Assembly: GCF_008933165.1 (NCBI RefSeq)
Contig: NZ_WBVQ01000001.1
Coordinates: forward strand, 1,054,001 to 1,118,000
Reading direction: 5' to 3'
Length of the DNA stretch: 64,000 nt
DNA from: Phaeocystidibacter marisrubri
GTDB lineage: Bacteria; Bacteroidota; Bacteroidia; Flavobacteriales; Schleiferiaceae
The notes beneath the pieces are model-generated. The model saw only the letters and a list, made by a program, of their open reading frames with translations. It did not search any database and was not told the origin of the DNA. Shown here piece by piece: positions 33,591 to 44,242 of the stretch. Every line of letters begins with the position of its first letter. The first letter of the stretch is position 1. The position numbers and the translations under genes were made by a program.

Positions 33591-35018
33591 ATGGATCGCT
33601 TAATTCTCAACCCAGCGCAAAAAGCGTTGAAGATTAATCTTGACCCGAACATTTACGGCACCTTTGCCGAAATCGGAGCTGGTCAAGAGACTGTTCGTCA
33701 CTTCTTTAGAGCAGGTGGTGCTTCCGGCACCATCGCAAAGGCCATGTCTGCATACGACAAGGATTTCTCTGATGCCATTTACGGCAAAGAGAAAGACAAT
33801 CGCTATGTAACGGAAGAGCGCCTTCGCAAAATGCTCGATCACGAATACAAGCTCATGAATGATCGCTTGAGTCGTGATAAGCACCCTGACAAACGCTTCT
33901 TCACTTTTGCGAATACAGTGGCTACGATCAACTTTGCCAAGACCTTCAAAGGACATGGTTGGTTGGGGTTGCGTTTCCAGACTTCTCCTGAAAAATTGCC
34001 AAATGAAATCATTCTGCACATACGAATGCACGAGAATGAGGCACGCTATCAACAGGAGACCATTGGCGCTATGGGTGTTAATCTCATCCATGGAGCTTTC
34101 CATCTTTGGGAAGATCCAAAGGAGCTCTTAGTTTCGCTTTACGACAACATTTCTAGAGATGCCATCGAAGTGGACATGATCAATTTCATTGGTCCAGACT
34201 TCGAAGATGTGGACAACCGATTGATGAGTTTGCAGCTTATCAAGAACGGGTTCACCGACGCTGTCATCTTTGGTCCAGAAGGAAATAACCTCCTTCCAGC
34301 CGAGCTGCTCTACAAAAAGAATGTACTCGCCTTGCGCGGATCTTTCCGCCCAGTTACCAAGGTGAATATCGATATGATTAAAAAGGGATACCGAATGTTC
34401 GTTAAAGAACGAAAGGTAGACCGCGAAAACCTTGTTGTACTCTTTGAAATCACCCTTAACAACTTGTTAGCCGAAGGTGAAATTGACGAACAAGACTTCT
34501 TGGATAGAGCTGAGATACTCTGTTCACTTGGACAAACTGTTCTCATCTCTAACTATCAAGAATACTACAAGTTGGTGGATTATTTCGGAAGATTTACTTC
34601 CAAGCGTTCGGGCCTTATTATGGGCATCCCTAACCTCGAAGAAATCTTCAATGAGAAGTACTATCGCAATTTGAATGGAGGCATTTTGGAGGCATTTGGT
34701 AAAATCTTCTCCAAAGACATCAAGATATACGTGTATCCATTCAAACCTACTTCCAAATCCAAACTCACTACCAGCAAGAACCTAAAAGTTCACCCTCGCT
34801 TCCGCCCTATTTTCGACTATCTCATCTACAACGGTAGAATTGTAGATATCGAAGACTTTGACGAGTCTATCCTCCATGTTTTTTCAAGAGAAGTTCTCTC
34901 GAAAATCAAAAACGGAGAATCGGGTTGGGAAGAGAGTTTACCTGCTTATGTAGACAACATCATCAAAGAGAAAGGATTGTTCGGTTGCGAAGTAGTGAAG
35001 GAAAAAGCGAATAACTAG
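33591..35018 (+). CDS. Conserved protein of unknown function
   Basis: A 475-residue soluble protein with very conserved-looking blocks: Y-G-T-F-A-E-I-G-A-G-Q-E near residue 22, F-F-R-A-G-G-A-S-G-T-I-A-K-A, F-F-T-F-A-N-T-V, and G-P-D-F-x-D-x-D-N-R-L near 205. I recognise it as a family found across Bacteroidota and beyond. Pipelines sometimes call it nicotinate-nucleotide adenylyltransferase, but I see no H-x-G-H type nucleotidyltransferase motif, so the name is not supported. Its stop codon overlaps that of the convergent photolyase. Confidence 0.75.
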   Translation: MDRLILNPAQKALKINLDPNIYGTFAEIGAGQETVRHFFRAGGASGTIAKAMSAYDKDFSDAIYGKEKDNRYVTEERLRKMLDHEYKLMNDRLSRDKHPDKRFFTFANTVATINFAKTFKGHGWLGLRFQTSPEKLPNEIILHIRMHENEARYQQETIGAMGVNLIHGAFHLWEDPKELLVSLYDNISRDAIEVDMINFIGPDFEDVDNRLMSLQLIKNGFTDAVIFGPEGNNLLPAELLYKKNVLALRGSFRPVTKVNIDMIKKGYRMFVKERKVDRENLVVLFEITLNNLLAEGEIDEQDFLDRAEILCSLGQTVLISNYQEYYKLVDYFGRFTSKRSGLIMGIPNLEEIFNEKYYRNLNGGILEAFGKIFSKDIKIYVYPFKPTSKSKLTTSKNLKVHPRFRPIFDYLIYNGRIVDIEDFDESILHVFSREVLSKIKNGESGWEESLPAYVDNIIKEKGLFGCEVVKEKANN

Positions 35019-36316
35019 TTATTCAATCCACTTTTGTAACGCTCTAACGCTCGTTCACGTGCCTGCTTATGGTCAACCATAGGTTTAGCGTACGACGATG
35101 TGCCATATTCTGGCACCCACCGTTTAACGTATTTCAAATCCGGATCAAACTTTTCCAATTGACTGGTAGGATTGAAAATTCTGAAATACGGAGCAGCATC
35201 GCATCCACTTCCTGAAGCCCATTGCCACCCGCCTACATTCGAAGCTAAGTCGTAATCCAGGAGTTTCTCTGCGAAGTAGCGCTCTCCCAAGCGCCAATCA
35301 AGCAATAAATGTTTGGTTAAGAAACTGGCAACCACCATCCTAACTCGGTTGTGCATGTATCCTGTTGAGTTCAATTCACGCATGCCTGCATCTACCAAAG
35401 GATATCCAGTTTGCCCTTTACACCAACGCTCGAAATGCTCTTCACTCGACTCCCATTCGATGTTATCGTATTGAGGTTTAATCGCTTTAGTGGGACATTC
35501 TGGATAATGAAAAAGGATCATTTGATAGAAATCCCGCCATATCAATTCGTTCACAAAGGTTTGATTGGAACTAAGTGCTGTTTGCAGAAGTTTTCGAATA
35601 GAAATGGTTCCAAATCTCAAGTGTACGCTGAGCCGAGAGGTTCCGTCTTTACCCGGATAGTCGCGCGTCTCATCATATGTTCGGATGATTTTCTTTGGAA
35701 ACTCTCTGGATGGGAACTCCAATTCACTCTTTTCAAAACCCAAGTCGCTTAATGACGGAATCTGAGTGGGAGTTGACCGGTGAAGATTACCAAGATACTT
35801 TTCTGTAGGATAAGAGGAAGTGTAGAAGTCATTCAGCTTTTGTCGCCATTTAGAAGCATACGGACTAAATACTAAATAGGGTGAGCCATCTCCCTTTACC
35901 ACTTCATCCTTATCGAAAATTACATGATCTTTTGCACCAATAAAATGGACATTAGAGGCATTTAACAACTCATAAACTTCTGAGTCGCGTTCCTTTGCAT
36001 ACGGTTCGTAATCGCGATTTGTATAGACATTTTCAATCGAGAACTCAGACAAAAGCTCCTTCAAAATGTCTACGGGGTTCCCATAACGAACCATGAGTGA
36101 AGAACCGTGCGATTCATACTCCTTTGAAAGGCGAGTAATCTCATTGTGGATGAAGGTGATTCGAGCATCTCGTTTATCTTCTAGTTGAGACAAAATATTC
36201 TCGTCGAAAATAAAGAGAGGTTGCACCGGTAAATCACCCCTAAGCGCCTTGTAGAGTCCAGCATTATCCTCGATGCGCAAATCTCTCCGATGCCAAAAGA
36301 TATTCAGTTTCGTCAT
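35015..36316 (-). CDS. Cryptochrome/DNA photolyase family protein
   Basis: A 433-residue FAD flavoprotein. The N-terminal antenna domain starts I-F-W-H-R-R-D-L-R-I-E-D-N. The FAD-binding domain has L-x-W-R-D-F-Y, P-L-V-D-A-G-M-R-E-L, and W-Q-W-A-S-G-S-G-C-D-A-A-P-Y-F-R, the usual region for class I CPD photolyases. It should use blue light to split pyrimidine dimers. It heads, in map order, a minus-strand block of pterin, isoprenoid and carotenoid genes. The last bases overlap the convergent gene (shared CTAG). Confidence 0.9.
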   Translation of the reverse strand: MTKLNIFWHRRDLRIEDNAGLYKALRGDLPVQPLFIFDENILSQLEDKRDARITFIHNEITRLSKEYESHGSSLMVRYGNPVDILKELLSEFSIENVYTNRDYEPYAKERDSEVYELLNASNVHFIGAKDHVIFDKDEVVKGDGSPYLVFSPYASKWRQKLNDFYTSSYPTEKYLGNLHRSTPTQIPSLSDLGFEKSELEFPSREFPKKIIRTYDETRDYPGKDGTSRLSVHLRFGTISIRKLLQTALSSNQTFVNELIWRDFYQMILFHYPECPTKAIKPQYDNIEWESSEEHFERWCKGQTGYPLVDAGMRELNSTGYMHNRVRMVVASFLTKHLLLDWRLGERYFAEKLLDYDLASNVGGWQWASGSGCDAAPYFRIFNPTSQLEKFDPDLKYVKRWVPEYGTSSYAKPMVDHKQARERALERYKSGLNN

Positions 36317-36587: not shown

Positions 36588-37259
36588 TCAAGCAGATATA
36601 TATTTCAAAAACTCTTTGCGCTTGGATTTCTTTTGGAATGAGCCACCGTAGTGAGTGGTAACAGTACTCGAGCCACAATCTTCCACTCCGCGAGTTGAAA
36701 CACATAGGTGTTCTGCATCAATGTATACAGCAACATCTTCTGTGTTCAATACTGCTTTCAATTCTTCGGCAATCTGTTCCGTTAGTCTTTCCTGAACCTG
36801 TGGACGTTTGGCGAAATGCTTCACAATTCGATTGATCTTGCTCAATCCAACAACTTGTCCGTTTGATATATAGGCCACGTGACATTTGCCTAGAATAGGG
36901 ACGAAATGATGCTCACAATAACTCTGTAGAGTGATCCCTTTCTCCACTAGCATCTCACCGTACTGATACTTGTTGTCAAACAGCTTCGCTTCGGGTTTAT
37001 TAGCAGGATTGAGCCCTTGAAACACCTCTTTGACGTACATCTTTGCAACGCGACGAGGAGTGCCAGAAAGACTATCATCATTAAGGTCCATCCCAAGAAT
37101 CTCCAGAATATCACGGAACTTCTCCTCGATTCTGTCAATTTTCTCATCATCTGAGATGTCAAAGGCATCGGAACGAAGCGGAGTTTCTTTGGACGTCCCA
37201 ACATGCGACTCCCCTGCCATTTCAATCACGTGGAGAATCTCCTCAGGTGAGGTTTCCAT
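36588..37259 (-). CDS. folE: GTP cyclohydrolase I
   Basis: A 223-residue enzyme that turns GTP into dihydroneopterin triphosphate. Zinc ligands are in S-Y-C-E-H-H-F-V-P and in H-L-C-V-S-T-R-G; the active-site H and the V-G-L-S-K-I-N-R-I-V block are present. The N-terminal 40 residues are variable. ATG 37259 begins one base after the PTPS stop codon; longer in-frame starts (37310, 37319) would overlap that gene. The adjacent PTPS-like gene uses its product, so the pair forms a pterin pathway. Confidence 0.93.
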   Translation of the reverse strand: METSPEEILHVIEMAGESHVGTSKETPLRSDAFDISDDEKIDRIEEKFRDILEILGMDLNDDSLSGTPRRVAKMYVKEVFQGLNPANKPEAKLFDNKYQYGEMLVEKGITLQSYCEHHFVPILGKCHVAYISNGQVVGLSKINRIVKHFAKRPQVQERLTEQIAEELKAVLNTEDVAVYIDAEHLCVSTRGVEDCGSSTVTTHYGGSFQKKSKRKEFLKYISA

Positions 37260-37260
37260 T

Positions 37261-37680
37261 CTATCGTTGCGTGGTTCCATCGAACTCGCAGAAGTTTCTT
37301 GGCGTTTCATAGAGAACAACCTTTAAATCTAGATCCTCAGAAATGTGTGGTCGAAGCCATTCCCAGATCGTAACTGCGATCCACTCTACGGTAGGGATAC
37401 GCGTTTTGAAGATGGGAACTTCTTCATTTAAGTTCTTGTGATCTAGCTGTTTTTCAACCTTGTCTTCAATCAAATCTGCAAGTACTTTCATATCCATCAC
37501 ATAACCGGTTTTGGGGTCGATTGGACCTTTAACTGTTACGATCAATTCGTAATTATGACCGTGGTAATGAGGGTTGTTGCACTTACCGAAAATCTCATCA
37601 TTCTGCTCATTGCTCCACTCCTTGTTGAAGAGGCGATGTGCGGCATTAAAGTGTGCGTGTCGACTAACCGAGACAATCAT
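37261..37680 (-). CDS. 6-pyruvoyl tetrahydropterin synthase-like enzyme
   Basis: A 139-residue T-fold enzyme. The zinc histidines are in H-F-N-A-A-H and H-G-H-N-Y, and the catalytic Cys lies in G-K-C-N-N-P. That last motif and the D-H-K-N-L-N and Y-E-T segments resemble animal PTPS more than E. coli QueD. It probably turns dihydroneopterin triphosphate into 6-pyruvoyl tetrahydropterin (toward tetrahydrobiopterin); a QueD role in queuosine synthesis cannot be excluded. It sits between folE and idi, overlapping idi by 4 bases. Confidence 0.88.
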   Translation of the reverse strand: MIVSVSRHAHFNAAHRLFNKEWSNEQNDEIFGKCNNPHYHGHNYELIVTVKGPIDPKTGYVMDMKVLADLIEDKVEKQLDHKNLNEEVPIFKTRIPTVEWIAVTIWEWLRPHISEDLDLKVVLYETPRNFCEFDGTTQR

Positions 37681-38192
37681 ACGTTTGCCTCTTGGAGGAA
37701 TCGGTCAAAAATGATTTTAAACCATTCCGTGTAATTTCCAGGATGGGCTTCAATATCGGCACGTAAGGCTGGTACTTCTATCCACTTCCAATCGCACACT
37801 TCGTCAGGGTTGGGATTGGGTTCACCTTCAAAATGGCCAATCATCACGTGGTCATACTCGTGTTCGGTTAGCCCGCTGTCTAACTCTGCTTTGTAGGTAA
37901 ACTCCAACACCTTAGTTAAGGGTGTCGTAAATCCCATCTCCTCCATTAAGCGACGATTTCCAGCCTCTAGAATGCTCTCCCCTTGACGAGGGTGGCTACA
38001 ACAAGCGTTGGTCCACAAACCTCCGGAATGGTATTTTTCCAAAGCTCTACGATGAATCATCATCTCACCTTTGGCGTTGAGGATAAAAACGGAAAATGCG
38101 CGGTGAAGAAGACCTTTACGGTGGGCTTCCAACTTCTCCATCAGTCCGAGCTCTTTATCGTGCTCGTCGACCAGGATTACGTGTTCTGCCAT
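37677..38192 (-). CDS. idi: Isopentenyl-diphosphate delta-isomerase, type I
   Basis: A 171-residue Nudix-fold isomerase. The catalytic Cys is in T-N-A-C-C-S-H-P and the catalytic Glu in E-H-E-Y-D-H. It interconverts IPP and DMAPP, the building blocks for carotenoids made by the crtB and crtI products next to it. A variant -7 box (TACCTTCG, 38232-38225) precedes it. It is followed by the PTPS gene with a 4-base overlap. Confidence 0.94.
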   Translation of the reverse strand: MAEHVILVDEHDKELGLMEKLEAHRKGLLHRAFSVFILNAKGEMMIHRRALEKYHSGGLWTNACCSHPRQGESILEAGNRRLMEEMGFTTPLTKVLEFTYKAELDSGLTEHEYDHVMIGHFEGEPNPNPDEVCDWKWIEVPALRADIEAHPGNYTEWFKIIFDRFLQEANV

Positions 38193-38224
38193 GAATGTGT
38201 GGTTAAGGCGTAAATAAACTCTGG

Positions 38225-38232
38225 CGAAGGTA
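38225..38232 (-). promoter_or_regulatory. -7 box variant TACCTTCG of idi
   Basis: Lies 32 bases before the idi start on the minus strand. TACCTTCG also precedes the gene at 3028, which supports it as a real variant. Confidence 0.4.
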
Positions 38233-38300
38233 AGAACAGAATAACACTAAAATGCCTGCTCATTCAGAAATCCAACCTTCTGCTAGGGTTACCTATTCGA

Positions 38301-39137
38301 TTACAATAAGTTAAAACTGTGTCGCAAGTACGAACTCACAAACAGACCGTATTTGCGCTTGTTTGATATGCGAATCCGTTCTTTGAAGATCACATGAGAA
38401 GACGTTCTCTTGATCTTCCTAAATAAGGAGTAATAGTAAACATACGCAATATATACTCCAAAGCGAGCACCTTTCGGAAGAGCTCTAACTCCTTCAAAAC
38501 CTGCTTTAAAGTCGGCTTCGATATCTTCTTCAATCTCAGCTTTTGTTTTATCGCAGAACTGATTTAAATCCACACCTGGAAAGTATGTTCTGCCAAGCTT
38601 GTGGTAGTCATCACTCAAATCGCGCAAGAAGTTGATCTTCTGAAAGGCAGATCCCAGCTTCATGGCCGGTTGTTTTAAGCGTTGATACGTCTGTTCATCA
38701 CCATTGACGAAGACTTTGAGACACATCAACCCAACAACCTCTGCACTGCCAAGTATGTATTCCTCGTACTTATCGCTGGTATAGTCAATAGGATTTAGGT
38801 CCATCTCCATGCTATGCAAGAAAGACTCGATAAGCTCAATATCAATATTGTAATCTCTAACCGTTTGCTGAAAACTGTTGAGTATGGGATTGGTGCTAAT
38901 TCCTCTTTCTAGAGCTAGATAGGTATCTCTTTTAAACTCAGCCAATAATTCTGGTTTCGGATAATCGTGGAAGGAATCTACAATCTCATCTGCGATGCGA
39001 ACATAGCCATACAACGCATAAATAGGGTCGTGATACTTACGTTGTAACCCCAAGATACCCAAGGTAAAAGAAGTACTGTAACGATGTGTTACTAGGCGGC
39101 TAGCGCGAAAGGACAATTGGTCGAACAGAGCTTTCAT
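38301..39137 (-). CDS. crtB: Phytoene synthase
   Basis: A 278-residue squalene/phytoene synthase. It has both Asp-rich motifs: D-E-I-V-D near residue 46 and F-L-R-D-L-S-D-D near residue 175. It joins two geranylgeranyl diphosphates to phytoene, the first carotenoid step. It overlaps the end of crtI by 4 bases, so the two are translated together, behind the ECF sigma factor gene. Confidence 0.94.
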   Translation of the reverse strand: MKALFDQLSFRASRLVTHRYSTSFTLGILGLQRKYHDPIYALYGYVRIADEIVDSFHDYPKPELLAEFKRDTYLALERGISTNPILNSFQQTVRDYNIDIELIESFLHSMEMDLNPIDYTSDKYEEYILGSAEVVGLMCLKVFVNGDEQTYQRLKQPAMKLGSAFQKINFLRDLSDDYHKLGRTYFPGVDLNQFCDKTKAEIEEDIEADFKAGFEGVRALPKGARFGVYIAYVYYYSLFRKIKRTSSHVIFKERIRISNKRKYGLFVSSYLRHSFNLL

Positions 39138-40618
39138 GCGGTTACTTTTAGTTGATCTTTTACAATTTCTCCAGCCACGACACGACCAGAGATCAAGGAA
39201 GGTGGCACACCAGGACCAGGCGTTGTTAATTGCCCTGTATAGTACAGATTTGGAACCACTGGGCTCTTCATCTTTGGCTTTAAGATAGCGGTTTGATCCA
39301 GCGTATTGGCTAAACCATAAGCATTTCCCTTAAATGCGTGGTAATCTTTTACAAAATCCGAATGGGCATAATCTCTTTTAAAGACAATATGTGGACGTAA
39401 GTCTTGTCCAGTTCTTGTCTCTATTCGGTTCATCACCTCTTCAAAGTAAACCTCCATGATATCGGACGTTTCTTTCATTCCCGGGGCAATGGGAATCAAG
39501 ATAAAAAGATTCTCACCGTCGGATGGCGCTACAGTTTCATCCGTTTTAGATGCCAAGCAAGTGTAGAACAGGGGGTGATTAGGCCATTCAGGTTTTTCAT
39601 AAATGGCAGAAGCATGAACATCAAATGGACTGTCAAAAAACAAGTTGTGATGAAGAAGCTCATCTACTTTGGTATCCAATCCAACATAATATATGATGGA
39701 AGATGGAGCTAGTTTTCTAGAATCCCAATACTTCTCATCGTATTGTCTCGATTCTTTTCGGAGAACGTTTTGTTCAATGTGATGGTAATCGCCTGCAGCA
39801 ACAAAGACATCCGCTCTATAATTCGCGTTGGCCGTAATCACTTCTGAAATACGAGTTCCTTCATAATGAAAACTCAGAACTTCTTCATTGCATTTGAATT
39901 GAACCCCATTCTCCTCAGCTAAGCTCACCATAGCCTCAACAATCTTATGCATACCACCTTTGGGATACCAAGTTCCCAATTGCATATCTGCATAATTCAT
40001 TAAGCTATATAAAGCTGGAGTATTCTTGGGAAGAGCACCTAAGAAAAGAATGGGAAACTCCAGTAATTGGATGAGTCGTTGATCTTTGAAATGTCTACGA
40101 ATGTAAGACTTCATCGACGAGAGCAGATTCATTTGAACCAGTCCTTTGACCACTCTCATATCGGCAAACTCCATGAGGGATCTACCCGGTTTGTAGACCA
40201 GTTCCTGAATACCTACTTCATACTTGAATGCCGCTTCCTTGAGGAACTTCTTCAATTTATCGCCACTCCCCTTCTCTATTTTGTCAAACAACTTGAACAG
40301 CGCGTTTGTATCCGCTGGCATATCAACTGCCTCTTTCTCGAAATAAACGCGGTAAGACGGGTCTAGACGGACTAATTCATAATAATCAGACACTTTCTTG
40401 CCAAAGTGGTTGAAATAGTCCTCAAACACATCAGGCATCCAGTACCAACTTGGTCCCATATCAAAGGTAAAACCTGAATCAGAGAATTTTCGAGCTCTCC
40501 CTCCTGGGGTGGAATTCTTTTCCAACACCGTAACAGAATATCCTTTAGCGGCAAGAGAAGTAGCAGCCGCCATACCGGCGAAACCGCTTCCAATAACAAC
40601 GGCGGTGGGTTTTGACAT
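39134..40618 (-). CDS. crtI: Phytoene desaturase
   Basis: A 494-residue FAD-dependent desaturase. The N-terminal dinucleotide motif V-I-G-S-G-F-A-G-M-A-A is followed by E-K-N-S-T-P-G-G-R-A. The bacterial CrtI C-terminal motif Y-Y-T-G-Q-L-T-T-P-G-P-G-V-P-P-S is clear. It turns phytoene into lycopene-type products. It begins 8 bases after the ECF sigma gene and overlaps crtB, which makes a three-gene operon. Confidence 0.94.
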   Translation of the reverse strand: MSKPTAVVIGSGFAGMAAATSLAAKGYSVTVLEKNSTPGGRARKFSDSGFTFDMGPSWYWMPDVFEDYFNHFGKKVSDYYELVRLDPSYRVYFEKEAVDMPADTNALFKLFDKIEKGSGDKLKKFLKEAAFKYEVGIQELVYKPGRSLMEFADMRVVKGLVQMNLLSSMKSYIRRHFKDQRLIQLLEFPILFLGALPKNTPALYSLMNYADMQLGTWYPKGGMHKIVEAMVSLAEENGVQFKCNEEVLSFHYEGTRISEVITANANYRADVFVAAGDYHHIEQNVLRKESRQYDEKYWDSRKLAPSSIIYYVGLDTKVDELLHHNLFFDSPFDVHASAIYEKPEWPNHPLFYTCLASKTDETVAPSDGENLFILIPIAPGMKETSDIMEVYFEEVMNRIETRTGQDLRPHIVFKRDYAHSDFVKDYHAFKGNAYGLANTLDQTAILKPKMKSPVVPNLYYTGQLTTPGPGVPPSLISGRVVAGEIVKDQLKVTA

Positions 40619-41133: not shown

Positions 41134-41145
41134 CTTAGTAGTTTT

Positions 41146-41186
41146 GTTTAACTATTTGAAATCAAAGTTAAACATTTTGTTTCAAC
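41146..41186 (-). promoter_or_regulatory. Sigma-crtI-crtB promoter with GTTTAAC/GTTAAAC repeats
   Basis: On the minus strand, the -7 box TAACTTTG (41170-41163) is overlapped by GTTTAAC (41173-41167 read in reverse) and followed 21 bases later, centre to centre, by its inverse copy (41152-41146). A looser copy (GTTGAAAC) is at 41186-41179. The layout suits a repressor that blocks transcription. The binding protein is inferred to be the neighbouring CarH-like regulator. Confidence 0.5.
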
Positions 41187-41232
41187 ATTGATTAAAAATG
41201 ATCAAAAGATTTCCTCAAGGTTCAGAATGCGC

Positions 41233-42138
41233 TTAAACACTGAGTTTTTCGAAAAGGGCCTTCTTCAAAGAGGCAATGTCTGGGGTCAATACGAACCTTT
41301 CATCCAGTCTAGATGCATCGTATTCACGGATTTGCTGTCCAGTGATGAACCATTTCAAATCTCTTCCGTCTAGCAAATCAACGGCCGATTTGAAATAAGT
41401 ATCTAAGTCCGAAGAACATGGAGTAGTTGTAAAAACACTCACGAGACCATCGGCTTTCATTCGAACTACAACTTCTTTCAAATAATCAATAGGCACGCTT
41501 TGACCGAGGAACACGACCCTGTGCCCTGCATTCCGGAGAATGAAGTTAAGATAGAGCAAACCGAGTTCGTGAAGCTCACCCGATGGTAGATAAAGAACTA
41601 GAGTTTTTGAATAGTCTGATTGGTTCATAGAGAATACAGAATCAATCGCCACAAACAGCTTTTGCTTGATGAGATTAGAAGCAAAATGCTCGTGAACCAA
41701 ACTGATTGTATTCGTTTGCCATAGCAAACCAACTTGTTGAATGAATGATCCGACTACTTTCGAGAAAGTCTCTTCAGACCCAATCTGAGCGATGCTATTC
41801 GTCAAGATTCTATCAAACATAAGCTCGTTAAAATCAAGCATGGCTATTTTAAGACCGTTTACTTGGCTCTCGTAATTACCATTGTATTTCGACGAGTCAA
41901 GCACAAGTGCATTTCTCTCAGCGTCAGAAAGTTCTGCAACCTTGGAGATCTTCATCCCATTATGTACGAGCGTTGAAACGTTCAACAAACGTTTGAGATC
42001 ACTGTCGCAATAGAGTCGAATATTGGTATCTGTCCGTGCCGGACAAACTACGTTGTAGCGCTGTTCCCACACACGTATGGTGTGCGCTTTAACTCCTGTT
42101 AATCGCTCTAAGTCTTTTATTGAGTACTTACTCTCCAT
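41233..42138 (-). CDS. MerR-family regulator with B12-binding domain (CarH-like)
   Basis: A 301-residue regulator. Residues 5-72 are a MerR winged helix (Y-S-I-K-D-L-E; H-T-I-R-V-W-E-Q-R-Y). The next helical bundle contains W140-x9-E150-H151, the motif of CarH-type adenosylcobalamin photoreceptors. The C-terminal Rossmann domain has E188-L-H190-E-L-G193, a DxHxxG-type motif whose His should bind cobalt from below. In known CarH proteins, the dark B12-bound tetramer represses carotenoid genes and light breaks it apart. Its position next to sigma-crtI-crtB fits this. Confidence 0.88.
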   Translation of the reverse strand: MESKYSIKDLERLTGVKAHTIRVWEQRYNVVCPARTDTNIRLYCDSDLKRLLNVSTLVHNGMKISKVAELSDAERNALVLDSSKYNGNYESQVNGLKIAMLDFNELMFDRILTNSIAQIGSEETFSKVVGSFIQQVGLLWQTNTISLVHEHFASNLIKQKLFVAIDSVFSMNQSDYSKTLVLYLPSGELHELGLLYLNFILRNAGHRVVFLGQSVPIDYLKEVVVRMKADGLVSVFTTTPCSSDLDTYFKSAVDLLDGRDLKWFITGQQIREYDASRLDERFVLTPDIASLKKALFEKLSV

Positions 42139-42143
42139 TGCAA

Positions 42144-42161
42144 TTTTAACTTCTGTTTAAC
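42144..42161 (-). promoter_or_regulatory. Direct repeat GTTAAAC/GTTAAAA, 11-bp spacing, before the MerR gene
   Basis: Two copies (42161-42155 and 42150-42144, minus strand) repeat at 11 bp, the spacing reported for CarH operators. The same core appears before the ECF sigma gene, suggesting autoregulation. Confidence 0.45.
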
Positions 42162-42240
42162 TGTATAACCGGAAAGTTCAACAAAAGTGCGAAAAAAAAT
42201 GAGATTTGTTTCTGCCTTGTGCTTCTACGCGTGTAATAGC

Positions 42241-43858: not shown

Positions 43859-44242
43859 TTAGGCCGAAATTCCAATATTCGAATTTGCCAGTTTGAGAAT
43901 GGCGGTAGGTGTATCGCAAAGAACCACCTTCCCTTTATACATCGCAATGGGAGCCCGAAGTAATTCGGGACGTCTTTTGATGGCTTCAATCCACACCGCA
44001 GGGTTGTACTCTCTTCCTTTGTGAATTCGCTGATACTCGGGATCCGCTTTATTCAACAAGCTCTTCGGGTCGCCGTCAAATCGGTCTAGAAGAATTCGGA
44101 ATAAAGTACCTGATATGGGAACGGAACTCACTTCTTGCTTGTTCACGTGCGATGTAATGGTTAGCGCGTAGGCTAAAGTCTGACGATCACGAGAATTTCT
44201 CGCGTTGTACAGAAGGGTTAATTCTCTTTCGTTGAAATGCAT
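43859..44242 (-). CDS. ArsC/Spx-like protein without the catalytic cysteine
   Basis: A 127-residue thioredoxin-fold protein of the ArsC family. The segment L-L-Y-N-A-R-N-S-R-D-R-Q-T-L-A-Y-A aligns with the active-site loop Y-x-x-P-R-C-S-K-S-R of arsenate reductases, but the Cys is Asn. The later part (E-L-L-R-A-P-I-A; D-T-P-T-A-I-L) matches L-x-R-P-I. Arsenate reduction is therefore not expected; a binding or regulatory role like Spx (without its redox switch) is possible. Confidence 0.75.
   Translation of the reverse strand: MHFNERELTLLYNARNSRDRQTLAYALTITSHVNKQEVSSVPISGTLFRILLDRFDGDPKSLLNKADPEYQRIHKGREYNPAVWIEAIKRRPELLRAPIAMYKGKVVLCDTPTAILKLANSNIGISA

Follow-up and report, generated by a model that had tools for sequence, protein, structure and literature searches.

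The MerR protein encoded in the window (the whole stretch of 64,000 nucleotides of Phaeocystidibacter marisrubri DNA analysed here) is a regulator of the adenosylcobalamin-dependent (AdoCbl) CarH/LitR type by sequence, signature and predicted fold. Comparison with related genomes suggests that it is a B12-type light-sensing repressor, which would act on inverted repeats and control both its own gene and the neighbouring sigma-crt-phr operon; we give this reading a probability of about 0.8. The genes concerned are as follows:

41233..42138, minus strand: gene of the MerR-B12 regulator (CarH/LitR type), 301 aa; no further homologue in the genome
40627..41133, minus strand: ECF sigma factor gene, heading the putatively controlled operon
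39134..40618, minus strand: crtI, phytoene desaturase (NCBIfam CrtID)
38301..39137, minus strand: crtB, phytoene synthase
37677..38192, minus strand: idi, isopentenyl-diphosphate isomerase
37261..37680, minus strand: gene of a 6-pyruvoyl tetrahydropterin synthase (PTPS) family protein
36588..37319, minus strand: folE, GTP cyclohydrolase I
35015..36316, minus strand: phr, DNA photolyase; the gene order is kept in relatives

These genes of the 3.35 Mb genome form one co-directional run, from 42138 down to 35015, with the divergent RF3 gene upstream of merR. The preliminary description had placed the MerR open reading frame correctly, and had named the right genes in a sigma-crtI-crtB operon; however, that operon was drawn too short, as it continues through idi, PTPS and folE to phr. 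The same locus is carried by named relatives, including Flavobacteriales, Cryomorphaceae and Schleiferiaceae MAGs. MerR genes beside crtI have already been mentioned in flavobacterial genome papers, with no function given (PMC4732338, PMC11855829). A sigma-dependent promoter inside the operon was considered and rejected: the regions upstream of idi and phr are mostly neighbouring coding sequence, and no conserved promoter-like block was found there in the relatives compared. The crtB-idi gap (38192-38300) looks like a degenerate duplicate of the 3' end of crtB; in the relatives crtB and idi almost abut, unlike in the window. A 127-aa ORF (43859-44242) after RF3, which has no Pfam match, adjoins RF3 in some relatives too.

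Pfam analysis of the MerR protein identified the MerR_1 (PF13411, E 4e-17) and B12-binding_2 domains, plus a weaker B12-binding match. In the homologue alignment, residues R22, W24, E25, R27 and Y28 of the RxWEQRY helix are invariant. The closest solved structures in a PDB sequence search are those of Thermus CarH (E 8e-15). An AlphaFold model was built from 32 homologues (pLDDT 88.7), and its top Foldseek matches are the CarH structures 5c8d and 5c8e (5c8d at E 8e-14); the B12 domain of the model superposes on that of CarH with a TM of about 0.82 and an rmsd of about 3.2 A. The model therefore predicts the CarH-like fold, with a helix bundle and a Rossmann B12 domain. The signatures on which a CarH-type assignment had first been based, W140-x9-E150-H151 and E188-L-H190-E-L-G193, are located at these residues and align with W131, E141-H142 and ExH177 of Thermus CarH; sequence, signature and predicted fold all bear this assignment out. 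W140 and E150 are conserved in 64 of 64 homologues, H151 in 63 and the axial H190 in 62. None of a further 80 homologues from named Bacteroidota contigs has lost the W, the E or the axial H190. G137, W140, E150-H151, G212 and P216 are invariant in 32 homologues.

The remaining parts of the B12 motif (ExHx2Gx41SxV/Tx22-27GG) are more variable in the 64 homologues. The E is present in 64/64, the axial H in 62/64, G193 in 53/64 and S234 in 45/64; the first G of the GG is found in 56/64 and the second almost never. The window protein has E-x-H-x2-G, S-x-x-T and a single G. Its best NCBIfam match is the CarH equivalog NF052513, at 92.6 bits, below the curated cut-off of 400. The position of His132, the upper ligand in CarH, is occupied by Gln141 in the window protein, and His was never found at the equivalent position in the 64 and 80 homologues, so the light-state chemistry must differ from that of TtCarH. 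An adenosyltransferase gene is present in the genome, a co-occurrence that is uninformative, as such a gene was found in 56 of 60 genomes. Seven genomes (G077, G091, G105, G141, G149, G153 and G171) have shorter MerR homologues of about 220 aa, which match the HTH and helical region only, like the LitR classes that lack the B12 domain. In two other genomes (G049, L045 4407-5294; G060, L074 1375-2262) the axial His is replaced by Asn in a MerR protein with intact Wx9EH and operators, and the loss of His-on B12 binding is possible in these two proteins, judging from the substitution.

These features also bear on a different reading, in which the MerR protein binds the palindrome without sensing light through B12, as a CarA-like B12-independent repressor that responds to another signal or antirepressor. 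The absence of His132, the erosion of the GG motif and the retention of operators by the two proteins with Asn at the axial position would fit such a repressor; whereas CarA is reported to lack Wx9EH (PMC8156234), which is almost invariant here, and W, E and the axial His are present throughout the further 80 homologues. Moreover, the apparent targets are photoprotection and phototrophy genes. The H132A variant of TtCarH still bound AdoCbl in the dark and was mostly tetrameric in the light (PMC10442372). Natural light-responsive proteins, however, carry Arg, Gln or Tyr at position 132 (PMC11796333); a Gln or Arg there is thus compatible with a light response, which makes light sensing by the window protein plausible. 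The CarA-like reading is considered unlikely.

The candidate sites of the preferred light-sensing repressor are as follows:

41144..41175, minus strand: operator O1 before the sigma-crt operon, inverted repeat ATGTTTAAC-N14-GTTAAACAA (sigma-coding strand)
41170..41163, minus strand: -7 promoter box TAACTTTG, in the left arm of O1, read by eye
42153..42184, minus strand: candidate operator before merR (autoregulation), TTGTTGAAC-N14-GTTAAACAG, 2 mismatches of 18

The general form of the predicted operator is TTGTTTAAC-N14/15-GTTAAACAA. O1 has 9-bp arms, a 14-bp spacer and 1 mismatch of 18; none of about 720 shuffled upstream regions contained a repeat with at most 1 mismatch. The -7 consensus of Bacteroidota promoters is TAnnTTTG. 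The GTTTAAC/GTTAAAC heptamers (41146-41152 and 41167-41173) do overlap the -7 box of the sigma operon, as had been proposed, the box having been read by eye. Taken singly, the heptamer occurs in the window about as often as chance predicts (9 occurrences against 7.9 expected). The position of O1 is unchanged in 28 relatives, and the -7 box at that place is conserved in nearly all of them. In most of the 28, another repeat is present further upstream, its centre 53-56 bp from O1 (46 bp in one genus); this repeat has been lost in the window species, in which the -33 box is weak. The arms of the operators are 23-24 bp apart, and successive operators are separated by about 34, 45 or 54-56 bp, which are near multiples of 11 bp.

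The preliminary description had instead proposed a direct repeat of the heptamer core at 11-bp spacing before merR. Such a repeat is present, with GTTAAAA (42150-42144) as its second copy; however, the two congeners do not share it, and conservation upstream of merR is found instead in the inverted repeat at 42153-42184. In a spacing scan with fixed arms and spacers of 0 to 40, inverted pairs were concentrated in a narrow peak around one spacing, with 22 and 11 of the 30 sigma promoters at two adjacent values, whereas dinucleotide shuffles gave at most 0.3 per spacing. Direct pairs at the 11-bp period were found in 5 of the 30 sigma promoters and in fewer than 2 of each merR-promoter set (30 from the family and 22 further ones); they are not enriched in the merR promoters, where inverted pairs dominate. 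The direct-repeat operator was thus not borne out; whereas the idea that merR and the sigma-crt operon share one type of operator holds in the form of the inverted repeat. The suggested genome-wide search for GTTTAAC pairs returned no direct pairs, and a strict palindrome search of the genome returned O1 and two sites with poor outer arms (C2:980755 and C3:282828). The O1 profile match in the genome has an E of 1.3e-5, and the profile matched just the two crt-locus operators among the 150 of 1122 candidates scored, so that weak targets may be missed.

Conservation of the repeat was compared between promoters with and without merR, with at most 2 mismatches of 16 as the criterion of presence; related genomes are non-independent observations in all of these operator counts. 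In 29 of 30 merR-sigma promoters of close relatives the inverted repeat is present before sigma (shuffles 4/300), and it was found in 0 of 22 promoters before crtI in a family without merR. A further 52 Bacteroidota loci with an ECF sigma gene after merR, mostly outside the family and 37-86% identical, include Algoriphagus, Hymenobacter, Rufibacter, Pontibacter and Marivirga; the repeat is present before sigma in 49 of them (shuffles 9/520). These counts strongly suggest that the ECF sigma gene, which had been put forward as the target at this locus, is a conserved target of the B12-MerR across Bacteroidota.

The repeat also follows merR through rearrangements. Five genomes in which sigma is absent or elsewhere (G017, G019, G038, G039 and G053) have it before crtI or merR. 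In G031, merR-crtI-crtB has been relocated to a fasciclin-SDR-merR-crtI-crtB stretch, at the head of which are two repeats at a distance of 51 bp; upstream of the sigma gene, which did not move with merR, no such repeat is present. In G036 both merR and the repeat are gone, and sigma-crtI-crtB is still beside RF3. Were the element a promoter through which the ECF sigma factor activates its own gene, and not a repressor operator, its place directly before sigma in most genomes would be accounted for; however, the genomes without a nearby sigma gene contradict it, the element is absent before the sigma genes parted from merR (G031, G036), and it overlaps a housekeeping-type TAnnTTTG box. Such autoactivation is the least credible of the readings and highly improbable.

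The arms of the repeat vary with the recognition helix of the protein. A KAHT, KPHT or RAHT helix accompanies the TTGTTTAA arms in 70 of 70 loci, and a different helix accompanies the TTGTATAA arms in 15 of 15; this co-variation is suggestive rather than independent, because the helix and arm types split along families and the loci include duplicates. The palindrome might instead be bound by a different transcription factor, with MerR as a mere neighbour; alternative palindrome-binding families would give a similar footprint. The repeat nevertheless tracks the presence and position of merR, and its arm type co-varies with the MerR helix, which makes a site of another factor very unlikely. Since the repeat tracks merR through rearrangements, is absent without it and has arms that vary with the helix, comparison shows that the inverted repeat belongs to this MerR regulator, as far as can be read from genome sequences. 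An entire family (f6; G041, G054, G065 and others) keeps crtI-crtB without this MerR and operator.

Under the light-sensing repressor reading, the B12-loaded MerR protein would bind in the dark to the inverted repeats covering the -7 boxes of its own and the sigma-operon promoters, and the DNA-bound protein would block RNA polymerase. By analogy with the characterised CarH proteins, light would break the Co-C bond and the protein would leave the DNA; the carotenoid, pterin and photolyase genes and the sigma factor could then be expressed. A putative second tier, in which the sigma factor might pass the light signal on to other genes, had also been put forward in the preliminary description.

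The system shares many properties with CarH of Thermus thermophilus, Bacillus megaterium and Myxococcus, including the MerR DNA-binding domain, the four-helix bundle with Rossmann B12 domain, the Wx9EH and axial ExH signatures, promoter-overlapping operators and carotenoid gene targets. However, every CarH operator characterised so far consists of direct repeats (PMC9304148); CarH and CarA use tandem 11-bp direct repeats (PMC8156234, PMC9304148), of the form nnnnTnnACAn in CarH, whereas an inverted repeat with a 14-15 bp spacer is found here. The geometry of inverted arms 23-24 bp apart is not described for CarH. In addition, His132 is replaced here, mostly by Gln, the GG motif is eroded, and the operon includes ECF sigma, pterin and photolyase genes. 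Given the operator form and the consistent lack of His132, the window system is regarded as a CarH variant. LitR-LitS of Streptomyces coelicolor is likewise reported to link a B12-type MerR protein to an ECF sigma factor and to genes of carotenoid synthesis (Takano 2005, cited in PMC6739363); it belongs to a different phylum and has a different operator, and here sigma, crt, folE and photolyase genes are in one co-directional run. CarH/LitR regulators, and the LitR-LitS system that includes an ECF sigma factor, are already known in other phyla. Photocobilins differ from MerR regulators. CtMerR and the photocobilins resemble the window protein in the GxxW and EH signature and in the non-His residue at 132 (Arg, Gln or Tyr), and they are light-responsive (PMC11796333). 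The light-induced sets of Class II LitR/PplR in Pseudomonas also include photolyase and folE (PMC9758184), and their operators (TGTACA-N12-TGTACA) are of palindromic type; however, arm and spacing differ from those here, and these proteins lack the full B12 domain and act with LOV proteins, unlike the window MerR.

Run over 45 relatives, the operator profile also matched promoters outside the crt locus, including those of proteorhodopsin, lycopene cyclase, fasciclin-domain lipoproteins and SDRs, as well as DUF4397 proteins, TspO, CIA30, an epimerase/TetR pair and others. Among 42 rhodopsin genes drawn from 196 genomes of the order, 26 have the repeat upstream with at most 2 mismatches (shuffles 5/300). 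For example, the palindrome, sometimes doubled, is directly before proteorhodopsin in the relatives G025 (L178 1961-1992), G016 (L181 1988-2020), G173 (L215), G087 (L217) and G139 (L221), and in family f3 several rhodopsin promoters contain a pair of repeats separated by 34, 45 or 46 bp, in some cases with a -7 box inside. The repeat is absent in three rhodopsin genomes without a full-length merR (G058, G105 and G153). It is also absent at rhodopsin in several merR-bearing genomes of the window's family, which makes the link dependent on the clade; no rhodopsin gene is present in the window genome itself. With the same element before all these genes, the regulator is likely to stand at the head of a wider light regulon in Bacteroidota. 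The full form of this proposal has a little better than even odds: a palindrome-using B12 photoreceptor would control sigma, carotenoid, pterin and photolyase genes in Bacteroidota, and also proteorhodopsin, lycopene cyclase, fasciclin, SDR and TspO genes in marine flavobacteria.

If this is true, light would switch on proteorhodopsin expression through the MerR protein, and ocean photoheterotrophy would be linked to vitamin B12, the supply of which might control phototrophy genes in the ocean. Light-induced carotenoid synthesis has been described in Chryseobacterium lacus (Flavobacteriales) with no regulator, and car/lit operon genes were not found there (PMC7064467). A search of the open-licence literature found no paper naming a proteorhodopsin regulator in flavobacteria, and none that describes an operator of the CarH type, either for Bacteroidota or for proteorhodopsin genes. 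The MerR protein is a testable candidate for the light switch of carotenoid and proteorhodopsin genes, and one conserved operator joining a B12 photoreceptor to both kinds of promoter makes the question of the regulator directly testable. Fasciclin-domain lipoprotein genes are recurrently located behind the operator (L164, L166, L172, L174, L176 and L180); in G031 (L037 9048-9130) two operators are followed by the fasciclin-SDR pair and then by merR-crtI-crtB.
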